Of a DNA stretch of 64,000 nt, positions 24,401-47,320 are shown one piece after another. Made by a program: the position numbers and the translations under genes. This DNA is from Citrobacter farmeri (GTDB taxonomy: Bacteria; Pseudomonadota; Gammaproteobacteria; Enterobacterales; Enterobacteriaceae), in assembly GCF_019048065.1 (NCBI RefSeq), contig NZ_CP077292.1, forward strand, positions 1 through 64,000, given 5' to 3'. Position 1 is the first letter of the stretch. Each line of letters starts with the position of its first letter. Below the pieces are notes generated by a model that saw nothing but the letters and a program-made list of their open reading frames with translations, was not told the DNA's origin and made no database searches.

Positions 24401-25761
24401 TAAAACAGGGTGTCCTTCAGGGCCAGCACGCCACTGAAGTAATCCGTCAGCGAAGAGGAGGCAAAATCAAACCGGTTACCGGCGGTGTCGACTGATAGTG
24501 TACCATGGCCATTCAGGCGATTGATAAACCGCCAGTCCTGTGCGGTATCAATCGCCAGCGTGCCGCCGGACAGGGTGACATCGTTTGTGCCGATATTGTT
24601 CTGTGCAGAAATCACCAGAGTGGCAGGGGTATCAATGCTAATGTTGCCTTGCAAGCCCGAGTTATCACCGGTCAGTGCAGATATGCCGTTCCGGGCGTTC
24701 ACCGTACCTGAACCGCTGATATCGGCATCCAGCGTAAAGTCAGTACTGGTGTGATTCAGCGTGAGCACACCAGTACCGGCTCCGAATTTAATCTCAGGTG
24801 CGTCAATTGCACCGGCAGTGACTGCAGTGTCACCGTCCCGTGCACCGACGGCCAGTTCGCCGACGGCGCCGGTATTGCTGGCAACAATTATTCTTTGCGC
24901 CTGTAAAGCACCGGAATCAGACGCAACTAAAGTTCCTTTACCCGCCAGACCTGCAGTGATGAACTGACCTGCGGACACAACAGAGCCCTCCCCCGTGACT
25001 TTTAAAATGCTGTCAAAAGGGAGTGTTGAACTCTGGTTTCCCACGGTAATATCGTTCTCTGCACGGGTTAAACCACCACCAGATGTCGTCAGAAAACCTT
25101 CCCCATATGTACCCACTATGATGCGGTGTCCGGAACGTAATTCACTTCCTGTGCCATCAACAAGTACAGTTCCTCTTGCCGGCTCGTTGTTGGATGTATC
25201 ATTGCGAGCGCCGAGCCAGATGCCTTCTTTTTCACTGGTGCTTAATAATTTCCCGCCATTCGTTATAGATACATACCCCTGTCCACTGTATGCTCCAATC
25301 TGCAGCGAGGCGGTATTATAACTTCCAGACTGCGAGAAAATGACTGTGCTACCCTCTCCGGAAATATTCAGGAAACCGGTACCACTCTTTGTCGTTGCTC
25401 CCGTTGCGCCATTTCCAGAACCACCTATATCAAAAGGATTAGAGTAGGATGCTGTTGTATTGACAAGAAGAGTACCACCATTTATCACATCTACAACCCC
25501 GGTAGAGCCACCTCGCCCGACACTTAAAAGACCAGTTGAAAATTCACCGCCACTAGTTATTATTAACCGGCCATCAGTTATATATCCTACACTGGTTGAT
25601 GAAGTATCGGTCCATTGCGTCTCAACTATCATTTCCTGGTTGTTATCAATTGGTATTGCAAAGGCTACACCACTGAATAAAGCTGCCAGAACGGAAATTG
25701 CAACCGGACTCAATGATGTACCGACAGATAATTTATCTCTATCTTGAATTTGATTTTTCAT
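21409..25761 (-). CDS. AIDA/Ag43-like autotransporter adhesin (1450 aa)
   Basis: Type Va autotransporter, expected to be exported by Sec and displayed on the outer membrane. Signal region MKNQIQDRDKLSVGTSLSPV plus AISVLAALFSGVAFA; a long beta-helical passenger (about residues 40-1150) made of short repeats such as GTGFLNISGEGSTV, GSGALALNAGTLEVDG, GLLTLTTGEDWQLGNRITG, and LLKEGTGTVALG. A C-terminal beta-barrel (last about 270 residues) ends SAMLGIKASF with the required terminal Phe. No protease triad or RGD is evident, so adhesion or autoaggregation is more likely than proteolysis. The ToxR/FidL-like pair at 34-35 kb could regulate it, by analogy with MarT and misL of Salmonella (inference). 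Confidence 0.9.
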   Translation of the reverse strand: MKNQIQDRDKLSVGTSLSPVAISVLAALFSGVAFAIPIDNNQEMIVETQWTDTSSTSVGYITDGRLIITSGGEFSTGLLSVGRGGSTGVVDVINGGTLLVNTTASYSNPFDIGGSGNGATGATTKSGTGFLNISGEGSTVIFSQSGSYNTASLQIGAYSGQGYVSITNGGKLLSTSEKEGIWLGARNDTSNNEPARGTVLVDGTGSELRSGHRIIVGTYGEGFLTTSGGGLTRAENDITVGNQSSTLPFDSILKVTGEGSVVSAGQFITAGLAGKGTLVASDSGALQAQRIIVASNTGAVGELAVGARDGDTAVTAGAIDAPEIKFGAGTGVLTLNHTSTDFTLDADISGSGTVNARNGISALTGDNSGLQGNISIDTPATLVISAQNNIGTNDVTLSGGTLAIDTAQDWRFINRLNGHGTLSVDTAGNRFDFASSSLTDYFSGVLALKDTLFYLAGTNTNALKNTLLKLGSGSEVTVEYGQQTIGGLAFDGGKIHMGSMTPGQTTTWSKVHTTEELDLSGSGTVQTNFAYTAIDYSPVPEGTIPLLSQDDGNILVQLISSEGSVTGSGGNLKLNDGNGNEISNGGVITRISQNGNIVAQGTWDYRLTGGNNNDGLYINYGLTQVELLNQDGEALVLNSESRTGNAADLSARLTGAGDLAIDTGAMNTLSLSNLENDYTGITDIRSGTLLMRNDNVLGNTALLQMAQGTGLEMNGHSQTVERVDIAEDARIDLDDGSLDISQGGQINGDLTGSGALALNAGTLEVDGANDSLSAAVTVAEGATVNLNAVQGLGTGSLDLAGLVNVADAEGVMVNSLSNTGTLALHASLVKLAGNNSDFSGIFMVDAESNLMASTAGHLGDAAVENEGLLTLTTGEDWQLGNRITGTGDLLKEGTGTVALGVNSTLYSGTTDIRQGGLTFGAGDNSATLASSQVNVYAEGALAGNGTVLGSVGNQGILQVGASPLEAATQRTLMSTFAAAETDRLTINGSLTNSGLVRLARVSGTAQAGNQLVVNGDYVGNEGHLLFNTVLNDDASATDHMTVAGNTTGTTRVSVNNAGGTGAQTLEGIELINVGGRSDGDFIQDGRIVAGAYDYSLVRGEGAAQRNWYLTSMTETVEPEESWTPGGKAQLRPEAGSYLANSQAANTLFMTRLHDRLGETQYTDVLTGEKKVTSMWMRNAGGHTRFKDGSGQIGTQSNRYVLQLGGNLAQWSTDGLDRWHIGLMGGYANSRSRSESGLTGYTSRGQVDGYSAGLYGTWYANEADKTGIYVDSWVLYNWFDNTVSGQGQATENYKSRGVTASVEAGYSLKLGESGRNSYWLQPQAQAVWMNVQADDHREKNGTRVADNSSGNLQTRLGMKAYISGHNALDDNKGRTFQPFVEANWLHNTSDTRVRMDNTSNSLSGTKNAGEVKLGVEGQITPHLTVWGNVTQQAGDKGYSDTSAMLGIKASF

Positions 25762-26820: not shown

Positions 26821-27351
26821 TTATTCATCTCTTACTTCGAACAATTCTTCAATCGATTTTGTCGGGTAGAAAAGCGAATTACAATTTTCTTCCTTTAACT
26901 GTATAAAACCCAGTTGAAGGTAGAATTTTTTGGCGTTGTCGTTCAGCGCTTCCACGAACATTCCGTGTATACCCACAGCTTGCGAGGCCTGATACACGAT
27001 TTTCATAGCATGGGTAACAAGTGTTTCTCCATATCCCTGATGATGAATGCTTTTATCAAGTGCCAGACGACCCAAAGTCACGCTCGGCACGTTTTTGTAG
27101 AGCACTCGCCTTTGTTGTGTCTTACTGGGAAGCAGCGTTTTCTCAAAGCAACTGCCAGACAACGTGTAGTACCCCATAACACGTGGTTTATCCTCTCTCG
27201 TCACGAGCAGATAGCCGCGTAAAATCTTACTGTTGTGCTGGCGCTTCAGATGAGCAGTGAGAAAAGTATTCAGATACTCTTCTCCACAATCGAAGTTGCT
27301 TAATTCATATTCAACTTCCTCAGAAAAAATCTCAATCCTTAAACCGTCCAT
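26821..27351 (-). CDS. GNAT acetyltransferase toxin (AtaT/TacT/KacT type)
   Basis: 176-aa Gcn5-like acetyltransferase of the TA group that acetylates aminoacyl-tRNA and stops translation. Typical features are LSNFDCGEEYLNTFLTAHLK, VMGYYTLSGSCFE, PSVTLGRLALDKSIHHQGYG (acetyl-CoA P-loop QGYGE) and VEALNDNAKKFYLQLGF with the active-site Tyr region. It follows its antitoxin by three bases. Identity to a named toxin is not claimed. Confidence 0.9.
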   Translation of the reverse strand: MDGLRIEIFSEEVEYELSNFDCGEEYLNTFLTAHLKRQHNSKILRGYLLVTREDKPRVMGYYTLSGSCFEKTLLPSKTQQRRVLYKNVPSVTLGRLALDKSIHHQGYGETLVTHAMKIVYQASQAVGIHGMFVEALNDNAKKFYLQLGFIQLKEENCNSLFYPTKSIEELFEVRDE

Positions 27352-27354
27352 TTG

Positions 27355-27624
27355 TTACTCCAGTTCCTGGAGACGTTTAGCGGCTCGTTTCAGTCGGTCA
27401 TTCGGTGCCGGCGGATTAGTGATTGCTTCCATAACCAGGTTCCAGGACTCCTCATTGAGGAGCAGGCGACGGTGCTGGTCAATAACTTCTGCAGCGCGTT
27501 CTGAAGCAGTACTGACCATGAACTGTGAAATTGACTGGTTAGTCATTGCTGCAGCCTCTTCGATCATGTGTTTGTCGTCTTCATTTAATCTCAGATCTAT
27601 GCGCTGCTTCTTCAGTGCTGACAT
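27355..27624 (-). CDS. DUF1778 RHH antitoxin of the GNAT toxin
   Basis: 89-aa antitoxin with an N-terminal ribbon-helix-helix (KKQRIDLRLNEDDKHMIEEA, QSISQFMVSTASERA), then a C-terminal toxin-neutralising part ending KRAAKRLQELE. DUF1778-GNAT is a well-known TA pairing. ATG at 27624 follows GGGAGAAAAACC. Antitoxin-first order with a tight junction to the toxin. Confidence 0.92.
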   Translation of the reverse strand: MSALKKQRIDLRLNEDDKHMIEEAAAMTNQSISQFMVSTASERAAEVIDQHRRLLLNEESWNLVMEAITNPPAPNDRLKRAAKRLQELE

Positions 27625-30864: not shown

Positions 30865-31158
30865 TTACCAGTTCAGATGACAACCAGTATCCTGATGCTG
30901 GCTGAGTATACGGATAATAATTATATCGGTGTCAGTTTGCAGAAAATAAATAATATGTTGCTCGAAAGTCAGGGCATTGATATGTTCACCCAGTTCAGGA
31001 CGAGGAGTTACTGTGTTGTTTTCACCCAGAATGCGGAAAATATCAGAGATGTGATTAATATATTTATCAGCCTGATCTTCACCGAAAAAGTGATAACCAT
31101 AGAACCAGATATCTTCCAGATATTGGCTGGCACTGGGTGTGATTTTAACAGTTTTCAC
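30865..31158 (-). CDS. parE: ParE-family toxin
   Basis: 97-aa ParE/RelE-superfamily toxin, typically a gyrase poison. Start taken at the GTG at 31158 (KTVKITPSASQYLEDIWFYG), inside the end of parD, which gives the normal length; longer frames are possible upstream. HFFGEDQADKYINHISDIFR, PELGEHINALTFEQHIIYFL and DIIIIRILSQHQD are family-typical. A 14-base overlap with parD gives coupled translation. Confidence 0.88.
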   Translation of the reverse strand: MKTVKITPSASQYLEDIWFYGYHFFGEDQADKYINHISDIFRILGENNTVTPRPELGEHINALTFEQHIIYFLQTDTDIIIIRILSQHQDTGCHLNW

Positions 31159-31411
31159 CGGCAGCCCTCGTACCTGCTTTAACTTTTTTGAGGAACGCAT
31201 CTTTTTCCCATTCCACGGATTCACCGCTGCTCAGACCTTCCGCCAGCAAATCACGCAGTGCCTGAAGGCGCGACTCGGCCTGCTTTTCCCGAAGGAGACG
31301 AAGAGATTCTCGGATGACTTCACTCTGAGTCCTGTAATCTCCTGACTTTATTAAAGATTCTATGAATTCACGAAGTTCATCACCGAGATCGACGGTCATT
31401 GTTCTGGCCAT
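31145..31411 (-). CDS. parD: ParD-family antitoxin
   Basis: 88-aa RHH antitoxin: MARTMTVDLGDELREFIESL, SGDYRTQSEVIRESLRLLRE, then KQAESRLQALRDLLAEG and a flexible C-terminus. It binds ParE and the operon promoter. ATG at 31411. A degenerate second copy with an expanded helix is directly upstream (31837-32235). Confidence 0.9.
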   Translation of the reverse strand: MARTMTVDLGDELREFIESLIKSGDYRTQSEVIRESLRLLREKQAESRLQALRDLLAEGLSSGESVEWEKDAFLKKVKAGTRAAGENC

Positions 31412-31639: not shown

Positions 31640-32235
31640 TAACGATCAATATCCGGGTTATCGTTATAATATATATAAATTGAATTAGTGTTGTGATCAG
31701 TCCTGCAGGATGTAAATCTATAGTGCAAGAATGTATTGTTCCGGTTACGAATAAGGAACTCTAATATTATTGATCTGAAAAAATTATAGCAGATTAATAT
31801 ATTTCTCAGTCTGCTCTTCACCAGACTAGTGGCTTCTTATCCGTAATACCAAATGTTCTCCAGGTCCTGGCTGGCTTCAGGTGTCAGTTTAACTGTTTCA
31901 CCGGCAGCCCTTATCACTGCTTTAATCTTTTTTTCAGGAATACGTCTTTTCTTTAATCCACGGGGCTCGTCACTACTCAGTAAAACACGAAGAGTCTGGA
32001 GGCGAGACTCTGCCTGTTTTTCGCGCAGAAGGCGAGATAATGCCTGTTTCTCTCGCAGAAGTCCAGATACTGCCTTTTTTTTACGCAAAAGGTGAGATAC
32101 AGTCTGTTTTTCACGCAGGAGGCGAAGTGACTCCCGGATTACTTCACTCTGAGTGCTATAATTATCTGATTTTATCAGGGATTCTATAAATCCCCAGAGT
32201 TCATCATCGAGATATACTGTCATAGTTCTGATCAT
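31640..32235 (-). pseudogene. Decayed second parDE copy with tandem-repeat expansion
   Basis: The antitoxin start MIRTMTVYLDDELWGFIESL closely follows ParD of the intact pair. Its helix is expanded to four 10-residue units (RLLREKQTVS, HLLRKKKAVS, GLLREKQALS, RLLREKQAES; 30-bp DNA units over about 32001-32120) where the intact copy has one. The frame then enters a parE-like segment (ETVKLTPEASQDLENIWYYG) and stops. Only scraps of the toxin remain below (31640-31836). An in-frame 132-aa product from 31837 is possible, but it carries no toxin activity. Confidence 0.8.
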
Positions 32236-32325: not shown

Positions 32326-32577
32326 TTATTCAATATTTTCCTCCCCGGCCAACTCTTCCCAGGGGGCGATGATAAATTCATTTTTCATCCATGGTGTCAG
32401 ATTATGTGAAAAATCAACCATTTCATTAGTGATGAAATTAATTATATAATATACACCTAGTTTTTTTGCAATATTACTTCCATCCTTAAAGGTTTTAACC
32501 TGCTGTCCCTTTTCCTGAAGAGCAAGGTTCAGTCGATTTAATGCAGTAGTTTTAGAAATTTTTTTAATCTTGTACAT
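32326..32577 (-). CDS. Small protein (83 aa), paralogue of 47321-47563
   Basis: Function not recognised. Basic N-terminus (MYKIKKISKTTALNRLNLAL) then TNEMVDFSHNLTPWMKNEFI and an acidic end. It aligns along its length with the 80-aa protein at 47321-47563 (STGAAMKRLNNRLTEYGQKV; LSFADSLTQWLKEEWLL), so both belong to one family, placed at either edge of the regulator/fimbria island. ATG at 32577 with a weak upstream AGGTAAG. A small regulatory protein is a guess. Confidence 0.6.
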   Translation of the reverse strand: MYKIKKISKTTALNRLNLALQEKGQQVKTFKDGSNIAKKLGVYYIINFITNEMVDFSHNLTPWMKNEFIIAPWEELAGEENIE

Positions 32578-32609
32578 TTATCTTACCTAAAGATATTATT
32601 GATAGTAAT

Positions 32610-32789
32610 TCAACTTTTGTGTTTTTCTGAGTACGTTTTATAGTGTTTAACTCTTAACAGAAAAGCTAATTTCATTTCATTTGGCATATTCCCGCTAAAT
32701 GCCATAATGGAAACACCTTTGTGCTCAAGTTCCATTGATATATATGATTTTGCGAGGAAATCCACAGGGCATTCTTTTTGATATATCAT
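32610..32789 (-). CDS. GlgS/ScoR-like small regulator (59 aa)
   Basis: Resembles GlgS (ScoR), a small enterobacterial protein that lowers flagellar and type 1 fimbrial expression. Matching features are CPVDFLAKSYISMELEHKGV against the GlgS block with FLARSF and PVDILA, then AFSGNMPNEMKLAFLLRVKH against the TGNMDEEHRTWF region. Start chosen at ATG 32789 with GGTGG upstream; six more residues are possible. Its place in a cluster with ToxR-, FidL- and GGDEF-like genes near a fimbrial operon supports a regulatory role. Homology judged by eye. Confidence 0.6.
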   Translation of the reverse strand: MIYQKECPVDFLAKSYISMELEHKGVSIMAFSGNMPNEMKLAFLLRVKHYKTYSEKHKS

Positions 32790-33031
32790 ATTTATCCACC
32801 ATTTCATTCATAATTTTAAAATATAAACTGACTTCATATCCGGAATTATATGATTTCGTAATGCTTCTATATATGTTCATTGAAAAAATGAGTCAAAATA
32901 AAACATCGATATCATGACATAGTATGATTGTCTATTTTTTACCAAATAATTATCAAGGCTATCTTCATCTTTACTCTTATCATGTACATGTCTTGTCGTT
33001 TCATTTTTACATCCATTTTATCAGCGGATGA

Positions 33032-33541
33032 TTAAAAGTGATATTTATCTAATTTAACCCCTGGTTTAAAATTAGAAAAGACAATATCCTTATAGCATAA
33101 TACTTTTTTCGCATTGCATTTAATGGCACAGGTTAAAGCACTTGTTGCCTGACTGAATAATATTGGAGCATTAACAGATTTTGAAACTGTTGATGTAATA
33201 CCCATATATATATAATTACTATTATTATAGTGTAAGTTGTTTTTTACTTTTTTATTAGTCCGATCAAAAAAGTTCACAATAGTTTCTTTTAACTGAAACG
33301 AATCTTTTTTAGAAATTACCATTGCATACTTGTCTTTATTTACTCTATACCATTTTTCTTCATGGTGTTCAATCAATAACAAAGATAATGCTTTGATGTA
33401 TTCCATAAATTCAACTGTTCGAGTGGAATTATTAAGTAAAGCCGACTTAACTAAAACCAGACTTACAGGTGTATTTTTATCAGAAGCATCAATTTTTATC
33501 TGTAAATATTTAAGAAAGGTATCCTTATCAGTGATGAACAT
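33032..33541 (-). CDS. Degenerate GGDEF-domain-like protein (169 aa)
   Basis: Fold pattern of a GGDEF domain is visible but the signature is not. The position of R-GGDEF reads YRVNKDKYAMVISKKD, and the end ITSTVSKSVNAPILFSQATS followed by ALTCAIKCNAKKVLCY copies the I(G/T)...A-x-ALY-AK-x-GRN pattern. So it is unlikely to make c-di-GMP and could be a binding or regulatory protein. Start taken at ATG 33541 (MFITDKDTFLKYLQ) with AGGATTAAGAAA upstream. AT-rich. Family assignment is tentative. Confidence 0.5.
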   Translation of the reverse strand: MFITDKDTFLKYLQIKIDASDKNTPVSLVLVKSALLNNSTRTVEFMEYIKALSLLLIEHHEEKWYRVNKDKYAMVISKKDSFQLKETIVNFFDRTNKKVKNNLHYNNSNYIYMGITSTVSKSVNAPILFSQATSALTCAIKCNAKKVLCYKDIVFSNFKPGVKLDKYHF

Positions 33542-33757
33542 TTTCTTAATCCTGTATATATATCGTTTGAACGTATATTGTGCTCTTGTTTTCAAGTGAG
33601 ACTATTATTCACTCCAATCAGATGACTTGAAACATTTATCTGAAAAATAGAAAAACAAAGAATAATATTCTTTATAATAATTTGTTTTGTTTTGTTTATG
33701 CTGGGTAATAAAGGTAAAAGCAGAGATGACAGCAGTAAGGAGAAAACACCTAACGCT

Positions 33758-33780
33758 CAGAGGCCTGATTATGGCCTCTG
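33758..33780 (-). terminator. Hairpin after the FidL-like gene
   Basis: CAGAGGCC-TGATTAT-GGCCTCTG, a perfect 8-bp stem 17 bases after the FidL-like stop. It probably ends the ToxR/FidL-like operon; the T-run is weak. Confidence 0.5.
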
Positions 33781-33796
33781 CAAGAGTTAAGGTAAG

Positions 33797-34291
33797 TTAA
33801 TTTTTTGTAACTGTGCAGCTAAATATAGGAGAGAAAACATTTCCAATAATTAACACATTGTTGCTAATTTTGTTGATTTTGATATTTATATCCGTTGTTT
33901 CTCCTCCGAATAAAAAATTACTGACAACATTATCTTTATCATTATCGTTTGTACTTTTCACTATAGAGTTTAGTGTAAGAATATACCTTCCTTTTTTCGT
34001 ATCTAATGCCCTGTAGCTGTAATCATACTCTCTGTTTATTGTGTATGCTCCCTGATTATTCCGTATGATACCATGTACAATTGTGTGTATCTTTTTATCG
34101 GAAAAGAAATTAACTGAGATACTTGTTGTTATGTTTATATTTTCTCCATTTATGTTTTTCTGATAAGTATTGTTACCTTTACAGCTGAAGTCTAAGTTCC
34201 TTTCCATGGATAACATGAATAAAACAATTGCCGAGACTATTAAAATAGACTGTAAAATAATGTAACTATAAAACAATATTTTCCTTTTCAT
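33797..34291 (-). CDS. FidL-like membrane protein
   Basis: 164-aa protein with one N-terminal transmembrane helix (ILFYSYIILQSILIVSAIVL) and a periplasmic domain containing two Cys (DFSCKGNN, FSCTVTKN). Size, topology and position immediately after a ToxR-like gene match FidL/YqeJ, the partner of MarT/YqeI-type regulators. It is expected to modulate the regulator at the inner membrane. Start overlaps the regulator's stop by four bases (34288-34291). Confidence 0.72.
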   Translation of the reverse strand: MKRKILFYSYIILQSILIVSAIVLFMLSMERNLDFSCKGNNTYQKNINGENINITTSISVNFFSDKKIHTIVHGIIRNNQGAYTINREYDYSYRALDTKKGRYILTLNSIVKSTNDNDKDNVVSNFLFGGETTDINIKINKISNNVLIIGNVFSPIFSCTVTKN

Positions 34292-35055
34292 TTTAAATCA
34301 CCAGATATACTGTTGTAGAAGCTATGGCAGCCTGGAATATTTGTTATGTCTCCAATACACTTAAGGATAAACTTTTGGTAACCGGAGTTTATGATGTTAC
34401 TTCGGAAAAAATAATAGATTACATTTTGTTGGCACTGTTCATCTGTATATGGCTGGAAATGTTTTAAAAGAGATTTTAGTTCCGAAGAAGATAACACATC
34501 ATCATTATTAATTATATTAAACTGGCAATTCCCTTTTTCGAAGGTATTGCTTATCTCAGTTACAGGTATTGATTCTTTAGTGATTTTAGTTTTATTATAA
34601 TTTAACAAGTAGTAGCAAATATATGATGAAATAGCGAATGTAAAAAACATTACAATCATTTTTGATTTATTAATGTGTTTAGGTATATCTGACGTGATGG
34701 TATCACTGCAGTATTTTTCAATATCTTTTGTTATTGTCAAATTTTTCGTTATCATAAATCCTGTTCTCGGAATTGTTATGATGACATCTTCATCTATACC
34801 AAGTGATTTGATGTTTTTCCTGAGTGAAGATATATATTGATTAAGATTGTTGTGTGTTGTATGTGAGCCGTTGATGTCAAAAACGTTGATAAAAATTTCA
34901 GTCCTTGAAACAACATCTCCTTGATGCTTCAAAAGCAGGCTTAATAAATTACATGATGTAAATGATAAAGTAATACAATCATCAGTTTCTATATTTTTTA
35001 GTTTTCTTTGATCTTCATTAAACTCAATAATATTATTAATTAAAATTATTTCCAT
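34288..35055 (-). CDS. ToxR-like transmembrane transcriptional regulator (MarT/YqeI type)
   Basis: 255-aa one-piece membrane regulator. Residues about 10-110 form an OmpR-type winged helix (CNLLSLLLKHQGDVVSRTEI, HTTHNNLNQYISSLRKNIKS, VIITIPRTGFMI). One transmembrane helix is near 135-155 (MIVMFFTFAISSYICYYLL), and a periplasmic domain of about 100 residues contains four Cys. ToxR, CadC and MarT share this plan. With the FidL-like gene it forms a pair resembling MarT-FidL of SPI-3, where MarT activates the autotransporter gene misL. Targets here are unknown; the fimbrial operon and the autotransporter are candidates. Confidence 0.82.
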   Translation of the reverse strand: MEIILINNIIEFNEDQRKLKNIETDDCITLSFTSCNLLSLLLKHQGDVVSRTEIFINVFDINGSHTTHNNLNQYISSLRKNIKSLGIDEDVIITIPRTGFMITKNLTITKDIEKYCSDTITSDIPKHINKSKMIVMFFTFAISSYICYYLLNYNKTKITKESIPVTEISNTFEKGNCQFNIINNDDVLSSSELKSLLKHFQPYTDEQCQQNVIYYFFRSNIINSGYQKFILKCIGDITNIPGCHSFYNSISGDLK

Positions 35056-35384
35056 GATTAGTTCTCATTTAGTACTATCGGATAATTATAGCATGAATAT
35101 AATTATCCGATATATTGTTTATCATAGTTTAGTAAGCATGTTATAGATTGTAACTTATTTGTTTTCATTGTGTTTCAATAAGGTTTTTACAAGGTTACCT
35201 TTGATAATAAGTTGTCCTTAAAAACTCTTATTCTACTAGTATAGTAAGTTCTGAAAAAATAATGCCGATTTTAATTTCTTGTAATTAAAGTGATATCAAC
35301 ACTTTTATTAAAATAGAGAACATGGATGGTGTTATGTATATAACTTTAATTGTTGTTCGGTTTTGTTGAATAAATCGAACTTTT
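35056..35384. other. Upstream region of the ToxR-like gene
   Basis: AT-rich, no gene. CGGATAATTATAGCATGAAT then ATAATTATCCGATAT (35079-35112) contains an inverted repeat CGGATAATTATA/ATAATTATCCG that could be an autoregulatory site. Confidence 0.4.
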
Positions 35385-36265
35385 GCCAAACGGCAGGATC
35401 AGATCACGCATCATCCTGATAATACAGGCAGTACCGTGGCAAAGCAGAAATTCAAAATCACCAACTGGAAGACCTACAGCAAAGCCCTCATCACGAGGCA
35501 GACCTCTGCGTTATTCAGACCTTGCCATCACGACCGTTCTGGTTGTTAAGCGCGTTTTCAGGGTGACCCTGCGGGCCGCACGGGGCTTTATTGATTTTCC
35601 ATTTTTGCCCTGATGGGCATTCATTTGCGCTGCCCGGATTACACCAGTGTCAGCAAACAAGCGAAGTCGGTTGATGTCAGCTTTAAAACACCCAGCCGGG
35701 GCGAAATAGCGTATCTTGTAATTGATTCCACAGGCCTGAAAGTCTTCGGTGAAGGTGAGTGGAAAGTGAAAAAGCACGGCAAGGAACGACATCGCATCTG
35801 GCGAAAATTGTATCTGGCCGTTGATGCCAAAACACATGAAATTATCTGCGCAGACCTGTCGCTGAACAACGTGACAGATGCAGAAACCTTCCCGGGTCTT
35901 ATCCGACAGACACACCGGAAAATAAAGTCTGCGGCGGCAGACGGAGCTTACGATACATGGTTATGCCACGACGAACTGCGTCGCAAGAAAATCGGTGCAC
36001 TTATCCCTCCCCGGAAAGGCGCGGGTTACTGACCAGGTGAATAGTTAGCCGGAAAACCGCGCCTTATATCCCCGCTCTGAAGGACGGGGTTTTACGGCGC
36101 ACATGATAATCGTCGCTCAATAGCCAAAACGGTAATGTACAGGGTAAAGCAGTTGTTCGGCGGTTCACTGACGCTACGGGACTACGACGTCCAGGTTGCA
36201 GAGGCTTTGGTCATGGTACGTGCGCTGAACCAAATGACGAAGGCGGGTATGCCTTATTCAACAAA
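35385..36265 (+). pseudogene. IS903-group (IS5 family) transposase remnant
   Basis: Transposase fragments in several frames: an N-terminal part (KFKITNWKTYSKALIT, then RPLRYSDLAITTVLVVKRVF), the central DDE part (PDYTSVSKQAKSVDVSFKTP, IDSTGLKVFGEGEWKVKKHG, KSAAADGAYDTWLCHDELRR) open from 35613 to 36032, and the C-terminal part (MYRVKQLFGGSLTLRDYDVQ) after an interruption. An IS605-end-like hairpin sits in the interruption (36066-36100). The element cannot be active. Confidence 0.85.
36066..36100. repeat. IS200/IS605-end-like hairpin, copy 2
   Basis: TATCCCCGCTCTGAAGGACG followed by GGGTTTTACGGCGC; the hairpin interrupts the IS903-group remnant between its DDE and C-terminal parts. Confidence 0.55.
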
Positions 36266-36423
36266 GCCTGTCAGAAGCCACCTTCTACAACTGCTAACCT
36301 GAACACCGTGCCCCAGAATCTTCTGATATTAAACTACTGATTCATAAATACTTCCCTGCCATTTCTCGCATTTACAGATTACAAGAAAAGGAGAATAATT
36401 CTTCTCAGAATAACTGTGAATAT

Positions 36424-36477: not shown

Positions 36478-36798
36478 ATGCCAAGACCCAAAATTCCTCG
36501 TAACATATGTGGTCGTCCCTCAGATACTTGTTTTAAGCCAAATGCGCGACCAATGAGTCAGCTTGAACAAGTTCATTTAAAAGAAGATGAATTTGAAGCG
36601 TTACGACTGGTCGATTTTATGAGGATGCAGCAGCAGGAAGCTGCTGCTGTAATGGGGGTTTCAAGGCAAACTCTGGCCAATATCCTGAAAACAGCCCGTT
36701 TTAAAGTTGTGGACTGTCTCACTCAGGGAAAAGCTTTAATAATTAACACTGAAAGTAAAGGAGTTATACGAGATGATCACAGCAATTCCGATGAATGA
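36478..36798 (+). CDS. DUF134-family HTH protein
   Basis: 106-aa protein of the DUF134 type: MPRPKIPRNICGRPSDTCFK with Cys, KEDEFEALRLVDFMRMQQQE, AAAVMGVSRQTLANILKTAR (sigma-70-like HTH). Usually found with a NifX/NifB-like partner as here; the overlap is 26 bases. Probably a metal- or redox-responsive regulator (inference). AAGGAGCGTTT precedes the ATG. Confidence 0.88.
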   Translation: MPRPKIPRNICGRPSDTCFKPNARPMSQLEQVHLKEDEFEALRLVDFMRMQQQEAAAVMGVSRQTLANILKTARFKVVDCLTQGKALIINTESKGVIRDDHSNSDE

Positions 36799-37225
36799 CA
36801 ACCGGGTAGCAAATCATTTTAGCAAAGCAAGTTATCTTGTAATTATGGATGAGCGCGGTGTAGAACTCAACAGGATGGTAAATCCAGCTCTGGGCGCAGA
36901 TTGTTCAGGTAAACGAAATCTGATTGACCTTCTGGTTCAACAACGTGTTAGTCGCGTTATAGTTCGTAACATTGGAGAACAGATGCTTGGAAAATTGTTA
37001 AGGCATCAGATCGCTGTTTACCAGACTAATTGTGGGCGCCGTTTGTTAACAGAAATGAGTGATCCGAGCACAAGTGATCTGATTGAACTAAATAAACCAG
37101 AACAGGGGCGTCAGTCCTTTAATCATGAAGCCAAAGGAAAGAAATGCTGCAATTCTGAAGGAAACACTACAAAAAATTGTTGCTCGCAGACTCATCATGG
37201 AAACGGACGTTGTTGTCATTCATAA
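36773..37225 (+). CDS. NifX/NifB-like (dinitrogenase Fe-Mo cofactor) domain protein with Cys/His tail
   Basis: 150-aa protein. Residues 1-100 form a NifX-type domain (ITAIPMNDNRVANHFSKASY, VSRVIVRNIGEQMLGKLLRH, IAVYQTNCGRRLL). The tail from about residue 120 is rich in Cys and His (KKCCNSEGN, KNCCSQTHHG, GRCCHS), suggesting metal binding. Such proteins outside nif clusters have no settled role. Start ATG 36773 has AAAGGAG nine bases upstream. Pairs with the DUF134 gene as one operon. Confidence 0.82.
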   Translation: MITAIPMNDNRVANHFSKASYLVIMDERGVELNRMVNPALGADCSGKRNLIDLLVQQRVSRVIVRNIGEQMLGKLLRHQIAVYQTNCGRRLLTEMSDPSTSDLIELNKPEQGRQSFNHEAKGKKCCNSEGNTTKNCCSQTHHGNGRCCHS

Positions 37226-38138: not shown

Positions 38139-39215
38139 AAATAACCTCCATTTTCTGAACTGAATTCCGTGAGGTAAGTAGTTGCCTGTTGCACATTTAT
38201 TGTTTCCACTTCAGGAGGGAGTTTTCCTTCCTGGTTGTTTACACAGTAGTAAGATCCTTATCTGATGTGACCGCGACAGTTTCATGACTTACTTTTCCGT
38301 ATAAATATTGTTGCTGAGACATACGATGGGTTTATGAAAGATGGTGAAATCATTCGGGCCTTCTCGCAAAATACATCAATAAACGACCTCACACCATGAG
38401 ATAAAAATCAAGATTACTGTTTAAGATACATACACAATACCAGGCATTAACATATCCTGGATTCCTGGTCAATAAATCCGCGTTATGTTTTTATCAGGAT
38501 ACTGATTTGTAGCTTACATTCCAGTGGAAAACCATAAAAAAGCAAAAACATTATTTTCTTAAAGGTGTGGAGGACACTTTTATTAAGTACTTTTGGACTT
38601 TATGGGTAATTAATAATGATGTTCGTCACAATTTTATAAAATATTTTTGTTCGTTTTGTGTTTTGTTTATGAATATTTTGTGAAGTTATTGGGGAATATT
38701 CTTATTTTTTGGCGAGTTATTTTTGAATCCTCCCACGAAACACATAAGTGTATTTTTATAAAAAGAAGCGAATTAATGTTTGTCATTCTCTTGTCGCGAT
38801 GACACCTTATTATTTCATTAGTTTTTCTAACTATTTTATCAGGCATGTTTAGATGGATAATTTTACATGATATTTTATAACAGAGTTTTAATCCCTGTGG
38901 TAGGGTAAGTTTTTGTAATTTTTCTGAAATTTGGTTATTTTTTTTAGATTTTTCTTTACGTTAGCAGAAGAACGAAAATTCTTAATGAATGTTTTTTTTG
39001 ATTAACCCTATGAATATATTAACCTTCCTTGCATAGGCAGAAACGATCGATGCAAAACACCTGATAGATAAAAGTTATCATTTTCTCTGTTTTTGGAAGT
39101 TTAAAACGATTGATAATCGTTTTTTGGAATGTTTAAATGCCCTGAACTTAAATGGAACTTAACTATATTTATCCCGGAAATGACTTGCCGGGGCAAAACG
39201 GGAGATGCGCCTACC
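38139..39215. other. 1-kb AT-rich regulatory gap before the fimbrial regulator
   Basis: No gene found. Very AT-rich, with many poly-T and poly-A tracts (for example 38930-39000), a typical target for H-NS. It contains the promoter region of the LuxR-type gene. Confidence 0.5.
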
Positions 39216-39782
39216 ATGAATTACCATTTTATCTCTGATGACAGTTTCTTTCTTCTTGGTGTTCAGAAGTTAATTAATAGTCATGGTGGATCATTTTTTT
39301 TTCACAACTTAAGCAATAAAGAACAGACATTATTTATTCCACATCCAGGAGATGTGGTGGTCATTGCTATCAATAATGTACACTTACGTAGCCGTCTGTT
39401 ACGTAGCCGTCTGCTACGTAGGCGGTCGCTGGCACGGAGCAGGTTGATAATTATGCTTGATATACCGCTCACCCCTGTACATTTGGAGCATTTTCCATGG
39501 TTATTACCCAAAAATATCAGTACAGAGGCTTTTTCTGCCGTGATACAGAAAGCAGAACGGTCAAGTGTTTTTCGAGCTGAAGTCCCACGAGAAACGCTAT
39601 CTCTCTTTGAGAATCTCTGTAGTGGGAAATCTGTAACCAACCTGTCAGAAAGTGATAATAAACCGCTGAAATATATCTATAGAGTAAAAAGGAATGTTTT
39701 CATAAAATACGGGCTATTGAAAAGCAATTCCGCTGGGATATTATTATGTAGAGATATGTTGAGTATTAAGACCCCCGTCTGA
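39216..39782 (+). CDS. LuxR-type fimbrial regulator with internal 15-bp repeats
   Basis: 188-aa regulator. Start placed at ATG 39216 (MNYHFISDDSFFLLGVQKLI) after GGGAGATGC; the frame is open upstream. The N-terminus resembles a receiver-like domain, and the C-terminus holds a LuxR HTH (ETLSLFENLCSGKSVTNLSE, YIYRVKRNVFIKYGLL), as in FimW-type regulators. Between them, three 15-bp units (39384-39428) encode RSRLL-type repeats (LRSRLLRSRLLRRRSLARSR). It precedes the DcrB-like and fimbrial genes in the same direction, so is likely their regulator. Confidence 0.72.
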   Translation: MNYHFISDDSFFLLGVQKLINSHGGSFFFHNLSNKEQTLFIPHPGDVVVIAINNVHLRSRLLRSRLLRRRSLARSRLIIMLDIPLTPVHLEHFPWLLPKNISTEAFSAVIQKAERSSVFRAEVPRETLSLFENLCSGKSVTNLSESDNKPLKYIYRVKRNVFIKYGLLKSNSAGILLCRDMLSIKTPV

Positions 39783-39879
39783 TTTTTAACCTTGCTCACA
39801 GGTATTCACTGTTAGTTCCATGATTTTTCAGGAACGAATTTTATCTACGCGAAATTTATATCTCAAAAAGGAGTTAAAA

Positions 39880-40419
39880 ATGAAAATTCGCCTAATAGCC
39901 ACTTCCCTGCTTATCAGTTCAAGCTTGCTGTTGTCTGCCTGTGACGATAAAAATAGTGCCGACATGTCGTTGAATAGAACGAAAGTTCTCGATGGAAAAG
40001 CTTCAATAGTGATGCCGGATGGATTTATTAAAATGCCGCAGAACATGCTGGAAACAAAATATCCTGCATCCCAGCGACCACAGGAGGCATGGTACATAGA
40101 AAGTGAGGGGGGCAAGGTTTCTATTGCCTTCAGTGCTACCACTAATTCTGTCTCTGAGTCTCAGGTTGATAAAGTTGCAGGAGCAATGAAACAACAGCTC
40201 AAAACATTTTCTCCGTCAGTATCTGAAGTTACTGTAAATGGTAAAAAAATGAGCCGTATCGAGATGGTTACCCCTGCTGCCGACGGGAAAATTTACAACC
40301 TGATGCAACTTTCTTCCTATAACGGAAAACTGCTGATATCTACTTTTAATGCTACTGAAGACCTGAAGGAAAAATATGTACAGGCCGGAAATGATGCGTT
40401 GTCGTCTTTAAGCTACTGA
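39880..40419 (+). CDS. DcrB-like lipoprotein, upstream copy
   Basis: 179-aa periplasmic lipoprotein with lipobox LLLSAC after a signal peptide (MKIRLIATSLLISSSLLLSA). Body resembles DcrB: VLDGKASIVMPDGFIKMP, WYIESEGGKVSIAFSA, then QLSSYNGKLLISTFNA. Start at ATG 39880 after AAAAAGGAGTT. A paralogue (46168-46755) lies on the other side of the fimbrial operon. DcrB affects envelope protein maturation and phage C1 uptake in E. coli; here a role in fimbrial export is inferred from position. Confidence 0.8.
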   Translation: MKIRLIATSLLISSSLLLSACDDKNSADMSLNRTKVLDGKASIVMPDGFIKMPQNMLETKYPASQRPQEAWYIESEGGKVSIAFSATTNSVSESQVDKVAGAMKQQLKTFSPSVSEVTVNGKKMSRIEMVTPAADGKIYNLMQLSSYNGKLLISTFNATEDLKEKYVQAGNDALSSLSY

Positions 40420-40719: not shown

Positions 40720-41334
40720 ATGAAAATGAATCGTCTTTTGGTGTCTGTACTGATGTCTTCTACGATATTGTCCACAGGAGCACTGGCATCTAACGGTACC
40801 ATCAACTTTACCGGTACCGTTGTGGCCAGCGCCTGCGACACGGATGTTACCGTCAGCTATACAGGGGGAAGCTACACATCTACTGCCGGCGTGGTTACTG
40901 CTCAGATCGATCTGCCTGATACAACTCCGGCCTCTCTGTCTACTGTTGGTAGCTATGCTGGTCATACCCCATTTAGTATCAAACTGACAAACTGCCTGGC
41001 TGGAACCACTTCTCCGAATAACGTGTATACCCGTTTTGTATCAGGCCAGACCGCTCCTGGTGACTCAAACGTGCTGGCAAATACTGCCAGCTCTGGCGCA
41101 GCAACGAACGTTGGAATTGCCATCCTGAGACCAGATAACCAGACTCAGATTAATATTAACGCCGATCGTCTTTCCTCACCTGGTGCGGTTGACGCGGGCG
41201 CGGCTTTGCCTGTTTCCACTGGTTCTGCAGATTCGGTAACACTGAACTATGTGGCGGCTTATAAGGCGCTGGGTGCATCGGTTGGGACTGGTGACGTAGC
41301 TGCCAGGACTCAGTTTGAGATTGTGTACTACTGA
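40720..41334 (+). CDS. Major fimbrial subunit
   Basis: 204-aa pilin. Signal peptide MKMNRLLVSVLMSSTILSTG ending at ALA, then the N-terminal donor strand region GTINFTGTVVASACDTDVTV with the first conserved Cys; LTNCLAG has the second; C-terminus TQFEIVYY gives the alternating hydrophobic strand with penultimate Tyr recognised by chaperones. AT content is lower than in neighbours. TGGAGTTTTAAC precedes the ATG. A terminator hairpin after it would allow higher expression than the usher. Confidence 0.88.
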   Translation: MKMNRLLVSVLMSSTILSTGALASNGTINFTGTVVASACDTDVTVSYTGGSYTSTAGVVTAQIDLPDTTPASLSTVGSYAGHTPFSIKLTNCLAGTTSPNNVYTRFVSGQTAPGDSNVLANTASSGAATNVGIAILRPDNQTQININADRLSSPGAVDAGAALPVSTGSADSVTLNYVAAYKALGASVGTGDVAARTQFEIVYY

Positions 41335-41340
41335 AACCCC

Positions 41341-41366
41341 ATCAGTCCCGCTTTAGCGGGACTGAT
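41341..41366 (+). terminator. Attenuator/terminator after the major subunit
   Basis: ATCAGTCCCGC-TTTA-GCGGGACTGAT followed by TTTC, an 11-bp perfect stem, seven bases after the subunit stop. It should lower transcription into the usher gene. Confidence 0.85.
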
Positions 41367-41435
41367 TTTCCTGTTCCTCTTGTGGGATGTTCAGAGAATT
41401 ATTTCATCCGCTTTAAGGAAAAACGGAGTCAGTCC

Positions 41436-44021
41436 ATGGATAACATTCAACACTTTTTTCGCCTGTCACAACATGGGCTGCTACGCGTCTGCGTGGTATA
41501 TATCTTCCTGTCTGCAGGGGCCATGGCGGACTCCGGGTTTGAAGAAGGGTTCCTGATACGGGACAAAAACGGTGCTTCACCAGATGTGTTCATTTATCAG
41601 AATGCTGTCACCCCGGGGCTGAAAATAGTCGATATCCGGGTCAATGACCAGTTGGCAGAACGCGCAGAAGTACACTTTGTCAGCAACAACCAGCAGAATG
41701 CTGTTCCCTGCCTGTCACGGGAAATGTTGCGGAAACTGGGTATTCGGGTGGATTTATACAATGGCTGGGTCACTCCAGATGATGAAAACGGGCAGATCCC
41801 TGACACCTTACAACCGGCACTGTGTGAGGATATCACTCAGCGTATCCCCGCTGCTCAACTCAGCTATGACGACGCACATCAGATACTACAGATGACAGTC
41901 CCTCAGGAAGCTGTGGACAGCCAGCGCTTCACCATGATTTCTCCGCTGGAGTGGGATCACGGCGTGCCGAGCCTGCGCACGGCATATAGAGGTTATTTTT
42001 ATAACTCACGAACTAAAGGGCGTTCCAATAGCGGAAAGGAGGAAGACTCCACATCACGCAGTTCTTATATCAACCTGAATAGCACAGGAACTCTCGGGGC
42101 ATGGCGTCTGTACAGCATCGATTCGTTTTACCGTAATCCCGGAAAAGGCTGGGATTCTAATCACGATCGCATGTACCTTTCCCGGGATGTTGCTTCCTGG
42201 CGCAGCAACTTGCAGGCTGGGGAGATATACACAAAAACCTCCGGCTCCATGACTGGTACAGTACCTATTAGCGGAGTATCGTTGACTACCAGCGAACATA
42301 TGTCACTGGACAACCAGTTTCGCTACGCACCTGTGATCCGTGGGGTAGCTCGAACCAACGCCCGACTGGTGGTGCGTCAGCGCAATAATATTATCTACAG
42401 TACCACCCTCACCCCAGGCCCCTTTGCCATTGATGATCTGTACAGTGCTCAGGTTGGGGCAGATCTGGAAGTTACAGTTGAGGAGTCAGACGGTCAGCAG
42501 CAGGTGTTCCGGGTACCGTACACTACTCTGCCCAATATGATACGTCCCGGAGCCCTACGCTACAGCGCGGCGACGGGGAAATACCGCAACCAGGGTTCAG
42601 ATGTAAAAGAACCCTGGCTGGTGAACGGTAGTATGGAATACGGTTTTGAGCAGTTCACACTCAGTGGCACTTCACTGATAACAAATGATTACCAGACCGT
42701 GTCTGCCGGACTTGCGTGGAATATCGGTATGATTGGGGCTTTCTCCACTGAAGTTGCTCATGCCCGCTACCAGGATTCCTGGGACAGGAACGGCACCCGG
42801 GATGGATCGGCTGTGCGCTTTCTGTATGCCCGATATTTCGACCTTACCGATACCTCACTACAGATACTCGGTTATCAGTACCGGTCAGAAGAATTCCTGG
42901 GGTTTCAGGAATTTCTGTCACGCCAGAATCGCAGCAGTATCAACGGCTACGACTGGGGAGACGCTGAATGGGAGAGACGTAAACGCAGTCGGGTAGAAAT
43001 GAACCTGAGCCAGAACCTCAGTGGTCACGGTAGCCTTTATGCCTCCGTGAGTCAGGATCGTTTTTACGGAACCGGCGATAAAAGTACCTCAATAAGTGCC
43101 GGAGCGGGAACCACTATTGGTCCTGCCAGCGTGTCTATTTCCTGGACCCATACTAAAGACGGTCATACCAACGATAACCAACTGGGTCTGTCGCTGAGTT
43201 TACCACTGAGTAGCAGTGCTCAAGGGCGAAGTAACGGCTTCCTGAACTATAACCTTACCCGTGACAGGGATAATAACTACAATCAATCAATGGGTTATTC
43301 CGGAAGTACAGCAGACAGCACTGTGAACTATTCAGCCAACATACAACGTAGCGTACAGGGAAAATATAGTCAGTCAGGATCACTGGGTTACAACGGCAGC
43401 CTGGCGAACATCAGTGGTAACGTCAGCCGTAGTAGCAGTTATTCCCAGTATTCGGCAGGGATGAATGGTGGACTGACCCTGTACGGTGGGGGTGTAATTC
43501 TTTCACCACGACTGGGAACAACGGTGGGTATAGTGAAAACTCCTGGTGCGTCTGGTGTCGGAGTGTCCGGATCGGCGAATGCCAGAACAGACTACTTCGG
43601 TCATGCGATGGTAACCAACCTGACGCCGTACCGTTACAACCAGGTGTCACTGGATACATCGAAAACCGATGGTGTGGAGCTTAAAGAGTCGTCACGTCGT
43701 GTAGTGCCAAGCGAAGGTGCAGCAGTGCTGCTGGAGTTTGCCACCAGAGTAGGGCGGCGTGCGATGGTGGAAATTCGCAGCCCTAAAGCAATACCGTTGG
43801 GAGCTATGGTGTATGCGAACGGGGAAAAGGAAGAGGCCGGGATTGTCGGCAACAAGGGGCTAACATACCTTAGCGGACTGGATGCCCGGACTGAGCAGTC
43901 CCTGAAAGTGGTATGGGGGGAGAGCTCTGCTGAGCAGTGCACATTCAACCTGCCGAAGGCAACGGACGCGCAGCGTAAGCCGGAAAATTGGTACCAGAAA
44001 ATTGTGGTGGACTGCCAGTGA
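41436..44021 (+). CDS. Fimbrial outer-membrane usher
   Basis: 861-aa FimD/PapC-family usher that secretes and assembles the fibre. Signal peptide (LRVCVVYIFLSAGAMADSG), N-terminal chaperone-binding domain with paired Cys (VPCLSREMLRKLGI, LCEDITQRI), a 24-strand barrel region with plug (VRQRNNIIYSTTLTPGPFAI), and C-terminal domains (YANGEKEEAGIVGNKGLTYL) ending KIVVDCQ. Start chosen at ATG 41436 (MDNIQHFFRLS) with ACGGAGTC upstream; the frame is open for 18 codons before. Length normal. Confidence 0.95.
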   Translation: MDNIQHFFRLSQHGLLRVCVVYIFLSAGAMADSGFEEGFLIRDKNGASPDVFIYQNAVTPGLKIVDIRVNDQLAERAEVHFVSNNQQNAVPCLSREMLRKLGIRVDLYNGWVTPDDENGQIPDTLQPALCEDITQRIPAAQLSYDDAHQILQMTVPQEAVDSQRFTMISPLEWDHGVPSLRTAYRGYFYNSRTKGRSNSGKEEDSTSRSSYINLNSTGTLGAWRLYSIDSFYRNPGKGWDSNHDRMYLSRDVASWRSNLQAGEIYTKTSGSMTGTVPISGVSLTTSEHMSLDNQFRYAPVIRGVARTNARLVVRQRNNIIYSTTLTPGPFAIDDLYSAQVGADLEVTVEESDGQQQVFRVPYTTLPNMIRPGALRYSAATGKYRNQGSDVKEPWLVNGSMEYGFEQFTLSGTSLITNDYQTVSAGLAWNIGMIGAFSTEVAHARYQDSWDRNGTRDGSAVRFLYARYFDLTDTSLQILGYQYRSEEFLGFQEFLSRQNRSSINGYDWGDAEWERRKRSRVEMNLSQNLSGHGSLYASVSQDRFYGTGDKSTSISAGAGTTIGPASVSISWTHTKDGHTNDNQLGLSLSLPLSSSAQGRSNGFLNYNLTRDRDNNYNQSMGYSGSTADSTVNYSANIQRSVQGKYSQSGSLGYNGSLANISGNVSRSSSYSQYSAGMNGGLTLYGGGVILSPRLGTTVGIVKTPGASGVGVSGSANARTDYFGHAMVTNLTPYRYNQVSLDTSKTDGVELKESSRRVVPSEGAAVLLEFATRVGRRAMVEIRSPKAIPLGAMVYANGEKEEAGIVGNKGLTYLSGLDARTEQSLKVVWGESSAEQCTFNLPKATDAQRKPENWYQKIVVDCQ

Positions 44022-44059
44022 GGCGGTTTGCAGATGTCACAACAAAGGAGAAGGATTTA

Positions 44060-44791
44060 ATGATAAGGATGAAAACAATGATGGGCTGCTTGCTAATAGC
44101 AGGGCTGTTGGCGGCGAACCTGACACAAGCGTCGGTACGTCCGTTGCTGACGCGGGTAGTGGCATATGCCGAAGACCGTGAGACAGCGGTGGAAGTGCTA
44201 AACAGTAGTGGCGAAGCCTATATGGTACAGTCGTGGCTGGAAGATTTACATGGCCGGGACAGCGATCTTCCGTTGGTGTTGACGCCGCCGGTAATGAAAC
44301 TGGCGGGTAAATCTCAAGGTAAGCTTCGTCTGGTGGTGATGAAGGGAGCGATACCACAGGACCGGGAGTCAGCATACTGGCTTTCGGTGCAGGAAATACC
44401 GCCGAAGGCGAAGAACCCGGCCGATAACCGACTTCTGGTCGCAATACGTAGCAGGATAAAAGTGTTTGTACGACCTGAAGGTCTGAGTTCTGCGGGGGCT
44501 CGTGAGGCGGCAAAACAATTGACCTGGTCAGTGGAACAGGACGGAGGGAAGCGCTGGCTGAAGGCGACTAATCCAACACCCTACCACATCAGTTTTGGTG
44601 AACTGTCAGTCGGAAACGGTGCTGGTAAAGGAGTCAGACTGGAGGACAAGAACCATATGACGCCACCAAAGGGAAGCATGCGCTATCTTTTGCCAGCTGC
44701 GGTGAAGGAGGGGCGTCTGACGGTAACCTGGAGCGCAATGCTGGACTGGGGCGGTGAGGGTGAAACTATTAAGGCGGAGATCATCCCATGA
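44060..44791 (+). CDS. Periplasmic fimbrial chaperone
   Basis: 243-aa PapD-family chaperone: signal peptide (GCLLIAGLLAANLTQA), then SVRPLLTRVVAYAEDRETAV with the strand-G1 partner later (AYWLSVQEIPPK motif; NRLLVAIRSRIKVFVRP). ATG 44060 follows AAGGAGAAGGATTTA. The adhesin start overlaps its stop by four bases. Gene order subunit-usher-chaperone-adhesin differs from the chaperone-first order of many systems. Confidence 0.93.
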   Translation: MIRMKTMMGCLLIAGLLAANLTQASVRPLLTRVVAYAEDRETAVEVLNSSGEAYMVQSWLEDLHGRDSDLPLVLTPPVMKLAGKSQGKLRLVVMKGAIPQDRESAYWLSVQEIPPKAKNPADNRLLVAIRSRIKVFVRPEGLSSAGAREAAKQLTWSVEQDGGKRWLKATNPTPYHISFGELSVGNGAGKGVRLEDKNHMTPPKGSMRYLLPAAVKEGRLTVTWSAMLDWGGEGETIKAEIIP

Positions 44792-46808: not shown

Positions 46809-47320
46809 ACCAGACAGTGGTACCCTGCAATAATAATGCTCTCCCATTACCATAACTACCTGTTTGTTGCTGACTTCAAAAGGATTAGGCATCGTTCTTC
46901 TTCATATCGCGACTCTCCACATGAAAAATATTGGTGGCCTCACTTTCATTGTTCCTACATTTACTGACGAAATCAAAAAAAATCTAAATTCATTACTTTT
47001 CCAAACCTTTAGTCTATTACAGACAGTCGTCTTACTATAGATCCTGTCGCTTCCCGGCGCGAGAAGAGTGTTGAGCTAAAGTTATGCTGTTCAGTTAAAA
47101 AAGCAAAACTGTTTTGTTTAAATTGTGTTTATGTTCGTGTGGTTATTATATGTTACCTACAACTATCGTGCATATTTTTATTCTTTAATACAGCAGATTT
47201 TTTAAGGTGGTTTTATTAGTTATATGTGACATTACCATAAATATGATAGCAACTAACTGATAATCTTATTATTTTGTAAGTGAGTATTTTTCTATGACTC
47301 AAAATTAAATGGTTTATACT
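46809..47320. other. AT-rich gap after the fimbrial island
   Basis: About 500 bases with no gene that I can support. Confidence 0.4.

Follow-up and report, generated by a model that had tools for sequence, protein, structure and literature searches.

Membrane-bound co-component sensor–regulator pairs of enterobacteria have been connected with the control of surface structures: MarT/FidL activates the autotransporter MisL (PMC9214523), transcription of the psa fimbriae requires PsaE/PsaF (PMC9820224), and YqeI is mentioned together with adhesion and the synthesis of flagella (PMC10269533). In the VtrA/VtrC and ToxR/ToxS systems of Vibrio, too, a membrane-tethered winged-helix regulator is accompanied by an adjacent lipocalin-like partner. 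A pair of this kind, a ToxR-like regulator (34288–35055, minus strand) and a FidL-like partner (33797–34291, minus strand), was found in a cluster of five genes at positions 32326–35055 of contig NZ_CP077292.1 of Citrobacter farmeri. The window analysed is the first 64 kb of this contig of 88,902 bp, which is taken to be a plasmid, the other contig of the genome being 4.88 Mb in length. The best explanation overall, towards which we lean with modest confidence, is that this plasmid pair exerts signal-dependent control over the neighbouring chaperone-usher fimbrial operon and over its own cluster, with a GlgS homologue that would modulate flagella and other fimbriae of the host, and with an orphan gene and the small gene orf83 in accessory roles.

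The ToxR-like protein consists of an N-terminal OmpR-type winged helix, which matches PF00486 (Trans_reg_C) with 47.9 bits against a cut-off of 26.2, a single hydrophobic segment (residues 133–151 in a hydropathy window), and a C-terminal part with four conserved cysteines. These residues, Cys177, Cys208, Cys233, and Cys243, are all located after the hydrophobic segment and are aligned with cysteines in 59, 59, 60, and 60 of 60 relatives, respectively; the C-terminal part is predicted to be periplasmic. A protein with 66% identity to the regulator is present in Citrobacter amalonaticus.

The partner gene overlaps the regulator gene by 4 nt, and its product belongs to the FidL/YqeJ/ToxS/VtrC type. 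Its match to the FidL-like Pfam family scored 27.7 bits with a cut-off of 27, and the AlphaFold model (predicted local distance difference test, pLDDT, 89) comprises one membrane helix and a lipocalin-like barrel, for which the best matches among solved structures were ToxS and VtrC. A search of the PDB sequences with the profile of the FidL-like alignment gave no match. Cys37 and Cys159, which the model places on its first and its last strand, are invariant in 20 of 20 sequences of an alignment from which near or full duplicates (L007 and L023) and two loci with no partner beside the matched gene (L006 and L009) were left out. The overlap, the cysteines, and the fold are retained at 15–23% identity. 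Since the regulator is of the OmpR/ToxR type, and the partner combines a ToxS/VtrC-like fold with the 4-nt overlap, the two genes represent a co-component sensor–regulator like MarT/FidL, YqeI/YqeJ, and PsaE/PsaF. The original prediction, made from the sequence alone, had named a MarT/YqeI-type membrane activator and a FidL/YqeJ-type partner, and both assignments are borne out by these results.

The likeness to VtrA/VtrC and ToxR/ToxS is one of fold and gene arrangement, with a sequence identity of 6–13%. The pair shares the FidL_like Pfam family with MarT/FidL of Salmonella pathogenicity island 3, YqeI/YqeJ of Escherichia coli, and GrvA/FidL, and its genes follow the regulator-then-partner order of MarT/FidL-type systems (PMC9214523). 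However, it differs from these systems in being plasmid-borne, in being followed by a GlgS homologue and orphan genes, and in the position of the autotransporter gene (21409–25761), which is not adjacent but 6.5 kb away from the cluster. PsaE/PsaF of Yersinia likewise combine a ToxR-type regulator with a partner, and are encoded within the locus of the chaperone-usher fimbria that they control, but this locus is chromosomal, psaE and psaF are two of its five genes, and a GlgS-like gene is not mentioned in the passages on psa in PMC9820224. The words "fimbri", "plasmid", and "EAL" are absent from the main text of PMC9214523. In a further arrangement, the EAL gene STM0343 is a neighbour of two co-component pairs and of the stb fimbriae. 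Deletion of STM0343 lowers motility (PMC4219756), and STM0341/STM0342 and STM0344/STM0345 are named as pairs (PMC9214523).

The neighbourhoods of related ToxR-like genes were compared in 60 loci, ten of the stretches being shorter than 20,000 bases, with 40 control stretches of 20 kb taken at round coordinates in 15 genomes. Four of the counted loci (L098, L099, L101, and L102) contributed seeds to the profiles for ushers, chaperones, HD, tox, fid, lipoproteins, and regulators. A FidL-like gene was detected in 57 of the 60 loci and in none of the controls; those in L006 and L009 go with a different ToxR-like gene, and the one in L126 is located about 1 kb further on. Ushers were found in 18 loci versus one control, EAL domains in 18 versus three, HD-domain genes in 19 versus none, and autotransporter domains in three versus one. 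Because the loci overlap taxonomically, the counts were repeated by cluster: grouping at 60% identity resulted in 28 clusters, with ushers in nine and EAL domains in nine, and one representative per cluster (n = 28) gave 7 and 9 occurrences, respectively (Fisher p = 0.007 and 0.011). This enrichment, together with the precedent of PsaE/PsaF (PMC9820224), fits the earlier view of the cluster as encoding regulators of surface structures. Judged by eye, the usual active-site residues seem to be missing from several EAL proteins near the related genes. In one stretch (L149, 10879–12279), an EAL-like domain appears by eye to be fused to a LuxR-like C-terminal part; an usher and a ToxR/FidL-like pair are present in the same stretch.

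ToxR-like matches were obtained in 643 plasmid records, and 12 places were opened in a non-random selection, five from the best list and seven from 40 evenly spread rows. Fimbrial genes are annotated in eight of these places (L260–L265, L267, and L271), a FidL-like gene lies directly 3′ of the ToxR-like gene in 11 (the exception is L268), and four (L260, L262, L265, and L271) contain an EAL, HD, or GGDEF gene. Fimbrial, ToxR-like, FidL-like, and EAL/HD/GGDEF genes occur together in Pantoea NZ_OY970452, Enterobacter kobei NZ_CP104725, Rahnella NZ_CP089921, and Pantoea NZ_CP134760, and LuxR genes are also present in some of the plasmid sets with fimbriae, ToxR-like, and FidL-like genes. In contrast to the C. 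farmeri cluster, none of the 12 places had a match to the GlgS-like protein, the orphan 33032–33541, or orf83. A direct tblastn search of plasmids with the FidL-like, GlgS-like, and orphan proteins gave zero matches; for the FidL-like protein the search was not sensitive enough, as such genes were later seen beside the plasmid ToxR-like genes. The core of pair and fimbriae is therefore not unique to this plasmid, and the earlier statement that no plasmid module with this combination was known stands only for the addition of the GlgS homologue, the orphan, and orf83, which were seen with such a pair here only. In the literature on FidL/YqeJ/MarT/VtrA-type systems, covered by titles and abstract openings and including few subscription journals, no description of such a plasmid cassette was found. 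Among the individual records, L271 (707–9891, Pantoea agglomerans plasmid pAR24_C, typed as conjugative) carries a fimbrial operon, ToxR-like and FidL-like genes, and an annotated diguanylate cyclase, while in L266 (6950–8824, also a P. agglomerans plasmid) a ToxR/FidL-like pair has a gene annotated as DcrB-related immediately after it, in a stretch without fimbriae.

The proposed target, the chaperone-usher fimbrial operon (40720–46098, plus strand; Pfam Fimbrial, Usher, and PapD), comprises genes of a subunit (40720–41334), an usher (41382–44021), a chaperone (43988–44791), and a fimbrial protein (44788–46098). Upstream of it, on the same strand, are orf217 (39129–39782) and a gene of a putative lipoprotein (39820–40419), tentatively DcrB-like on a match to PF08786 below the cut-off (E = 0.0014). 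A relative of this lipoprotein (E = 2.6e-30) is encoded after the operon (46168–46755, plus strand) and has no Pfam family above the cut-off. On the chromosome of the same genome, at about 971 kb, a ToxR/FidL-like pair is located between two relatives of the first lipoprotein (E = 5.7e-64 and 4.1e-26); this combination of such a pair with relatives of both proteins beside the plasmid operon speaks for a link. The orf217 product is only tentatively a LuxR-type regulator, since it has no Pfam match. Its residues 152–195 align (hhalign probability 80, E = 1.4e-5) with LuxR-like companions of related loci, but some of the seeds of this set were chosen by eye. These LuxR-like proteins are encoded close to related ToxR-like genes, in Enterobacter among others.

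Several observations weigh against control of this operon by the pair. The ToxR-like gene lies on the strand opposite to the fimbrial subunit gene, the distance is 5.7 kb, and insertion sequence (IS) remnants and psiB are situated in between. Usher linkage is common but not the rule, because most related loci (42 of 60) have no usher in the searched stretch, and GGDEF domains show no enrichment (5 of 60 loci versus 4 of 40 controls). Among the plasmids, the commonest match class is exemplified by L269 and L270, E. coli plasmids in which the pair stands beside fosA3 and IS26 copies without fimbriae, and 29 of the 40 spread rows fall into the class of these two units; the fimbria-linked arrangement thus recurs on plasmids, but by record count it is probably not the commonest setting. 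The first lipoprotein is associated with fimbriae and not with the pair, since 20 stretches opened around its relatives, spanning 23 of 38 places, contained ushers in seven cases, a ToxR-like gene in one, and a FidL-like gene in none. One of these stretches, L232, has relatives of orf217, the usher, the chaperone, and the lipoprotein, the orf217 homologue standing beside another fimbrial operon, and no ToxR/FidL-like pair, so the fimbrial half and the pair half exist apart. The operon may possibly have its own regulator in orf217, and promoter-like matches were at the chance level (21 found versus 21.0 expected). As a separate observation, the match class of L269 and L270 suggests that ToxR/FidL-like pairs travel on many resistance plasmids.

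These data bear on an alternative that we regard as rather unlikely, namely, that the pair was carried along as a passenger. Its natural targets, a lost neighbour or chromosomal genes such as those of flagella, would then be elsewhere, and its proximity to the fimbrial operon on this plasmid would be accidental. The IS remnants and unrelated genes between pair and operon are as this explanation would have it; the ability of such pairs to travel as passengers is seen from those linked to fosA3, the host chromosome carries two further ToxR/FidL-like pairs, and relatives of the flanking lipoprotein are usually found without a pair. On the other hand, fimbrial genes accompany the pair in eight of the 12 other plasmid places, and ushers are present in nine of the 28 clusters. 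Moreover, orf83 (32326–32577, minus strand), a small protein gene at the end of the cluster with no family above the cut-off in Pfam or NCBIfam, has a paralogue downstream of the fimbrial operon (47309–47563, plus strand; E = 2.3e-10 within the window and 1.2e-7 by genome search), so that one paralogue accompanies the cluster and the other the fimbrial operon. Signal-dependent control of the plasmid's fimbriae is considered the likeliest role of the pair, the fimbriae being an inferred target.

The gene at 32610–32807 (minus strand) encodes a divergent GlgS (ScoR) homologue of 65 amino acids, or 59 if translation starts at 32789. Its matches to Pfam (25 bits, E = 1.9e-5) and to the NCBIfam equivalog (32.1 bits, E = 8.5e-8) are below the curated cut-offs of 32.2 and 105 bits, respectively, and the match to PDB 1rrz has E = 0.0023. 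Nevertheless, the protein retains the family core motif, 16 columns of which are identical across six GlgS sequences including the plasmid one, and the protein database assigns PF08971 to the 59-residue form; the GlgS/ScoR-like assignment made in the original prediction is thus upheld. Apart from its location on a plasmid, it differs from GlgS in being only 34% identical to the chromosomal GlgS and 30% identical to a second GlgS paralogue. It could plausibly affect motility or other fimbriae, since deletion of glgS is reported to increase flagella and type 1 fimbriae, according to a passage in the citing paper PMC7537768. For the second paralogue family (L042, 1438–1689, and six further genomes), a search of 295 genomes gave matches in 6, at 60–68% identity to the query; all of these except G009 were opened. 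The occurrence of GlgS beside adhesins as a general rule is not supported, as the six stretches with GlgS paralogues have no usher, FidL-like, or ToxR-like match. In one of them (G002; L100, 7853–11800), a 1315-codon frame looks autotransporter-like by eye but gave no match to the autotransporter profile.

The protein of 169 amino acids encoded at 33032–33541 (minus strand) had been read as a GGDEF-fold protein without the GGDEF motif. The GG(D/E)EF motif is indeed absent from its translation, no profile similarity to GGDEF was found, and the single-sequence AlphaFold model (pLDDT 35.8) is uninterpretable, its low-confidence order of elements being compatible with a GGDEF fold. The degenerate-GGDEF reading is therefore not supported, and we treat the protein as an orphan.

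With these two genes in mind, the cluster could be imagined, along the lines first suggested, as a self-contained switch between adhesion and motility, in which fimbriae are switched on by the pair, the GlgS homologue lowers type 1 fimbriae and flagella of the host, and the orphan acts as a degenerate adaptor of the cyclic-di-GMP type. The GlgS homology and the reported glgS deletion phenotype (PMC7537768) speak for it, as does the enrichment near such pairs of EAL genes, several of them degenerate-looking by eye. We consider this scheme improbable, given that the orphan has no GGDEF signal, GGDEF domains are not enriched near the pairs, no GlgS-like gene was detected at the 60 pair loci, the GlgS-paralogue stretches have neither ushers nor pairs, and the genes look like three transcription units. 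The latter division, into the regulator–partner pair, 33032–33541, and the GlgS-like gene with orf83, is suggested instead of a single operon by the intergenic gaps of 255 and 224 nt on either side of 33032–33541.

As originally noted, the cluster is made up of adjacent AT-rich minus-strand genes: the five have 27–33% guanine plus cytosine (GC), and the whole stretch 29.0% versus 49.6% for the window. The genes are real: when 32326–35055 was shuffled 1000 times base by base, the longest stop-free frame averaged 79 codons with a maximum of 163, which is exceeded by the ToxR-like frame (255 codons) and by the open frame around 33032–33541 (189 codons). The composition, the surrounding IS remnants, and the orphan genes would suit an island of unrelated AT-rich genes that is silenced and in decay, which is the explanation we find least credible. 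None of the five frames is disrupted, the overlap, the cysteines, and the fold have been kept at low identity, and the protein database has the ToxR-like protein on 10 contigs.

A perfect 15-bp inverted repeat with a 7-nt loop (35076–35112) ends 20 bases 5′ of the start codon of the ToxR-like gene. None of 1000 dinucleotide shuffles of the 300 upstream bases reached 15 bp, the largest repeat being 11. The repeat has an RNA fold z of −3.42 and is flagged as terminator-like on the plus strand; an Rfam search gave zero matches. Beyond its own arms, one further match to them was found in the window with 2 mismatches, a chance-level number, and a scan of 250 upstream bases in an uncounted set of relatives of the ToxR-like gene gave no perfect repeat of at least 9 bp. 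The repeat may serve as an operator or form a hairpin in the leader; for psaE, a leader that senses temperature has been described (PMC9820224).

The cluster does lie between the autotransporter gene and the fimbrial operon, as was originally pointed out, but at 6.5 and 5.7 kb, respectively, with replication, recombinase, toxin–antitoxin, IS-remnant, and psiB genes intervening. A 25-kb query around the replication gene matched plasmids of Citrobacter, Klebsiella, Enterobacter, and others with 88.8% identity over 19% of its length. An IS5/IS903-like remnant (35353–36302), in which about 140 bases are about 84% identical to transposase genes of the IS903B type, adjoins the ToxR-like gene, and further on a DUF134 gene adjoins a gene with a Nitro_FeMo-Co domain (36478–37225) on the plasmid. 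On the other side, a frame for a ParD-like antitoxin that contains several LLREK-type repeats (31837–32235) is separate from a ParDE-like pair (30865–31411), and a GNAT acetyltransferase gene with a TacA1-like antitoxin gene near the replication gene (26821–27624) is probably a toxin–antitoxin pair. The ParDE and GNAT/TacA1 genes were not counted among the cluster members but read as ordinary plasmid stability genes.

Returning to control of the fimbriae by the plasmid pair, a mechanism could be proposed by analogy with MarT/FidL, PsaE/PsaF, and VtrA/VtrC. The FidL-like protein would be a periplasmic, lipocalin-like sensor of an envelope signal, anchored in the inner membrane and perhaps binding a lipid or bile-like molecule. 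It would pair with the ToxR-like protein through the latter's periplasmic part, presumably as a heterodimer, and stabilise or activate it. The cytoplasmic winged helix would then bind promoters from the membrane, most likely those of the plasmid fimbrial operon and of its own cluster, and nearby surface-structure genes would be turned on. The GlgS homologue would probably modulate host flagella and other fimbriae, and orf83 and the orphan 33032–33541 may be accessory. One could go further and hypothesise, although we doubt it, a recurrent exchangeable plasmid cassette of co-component pair, chaperone-usher fimbriae, and lifestyle gene (of the cyclic-di-GMP type or another), which would supply an adhesin along with the sensor governing its production, and in which the GlgS paralogue and the orphan here fill the lifestyle slot and, by reaching host flagella and fimbriae, constitute a true adhesion–motility switch.

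Altogether, the cluster is genuine and intact and represents a variant of a known sensor–regulator type, located near fimbriae, as its relatives often are, and accompanied by unusual extra genes. Outside the bile-sensing co-component systems, the sensed signals and the targets have been called less clear (PMC9214523), and the pairs on Pantoea, Rahnella, Serratia, and Enterobacter plasmids offer ready comparisons for the signals and targets of FidL-type systems. If the proposed control is true, conjugative plasmids would bring dedicated envelope sensors along with their adhesins, and the plasmid copy of GlgS would be a means of adjusting the motility of the host.

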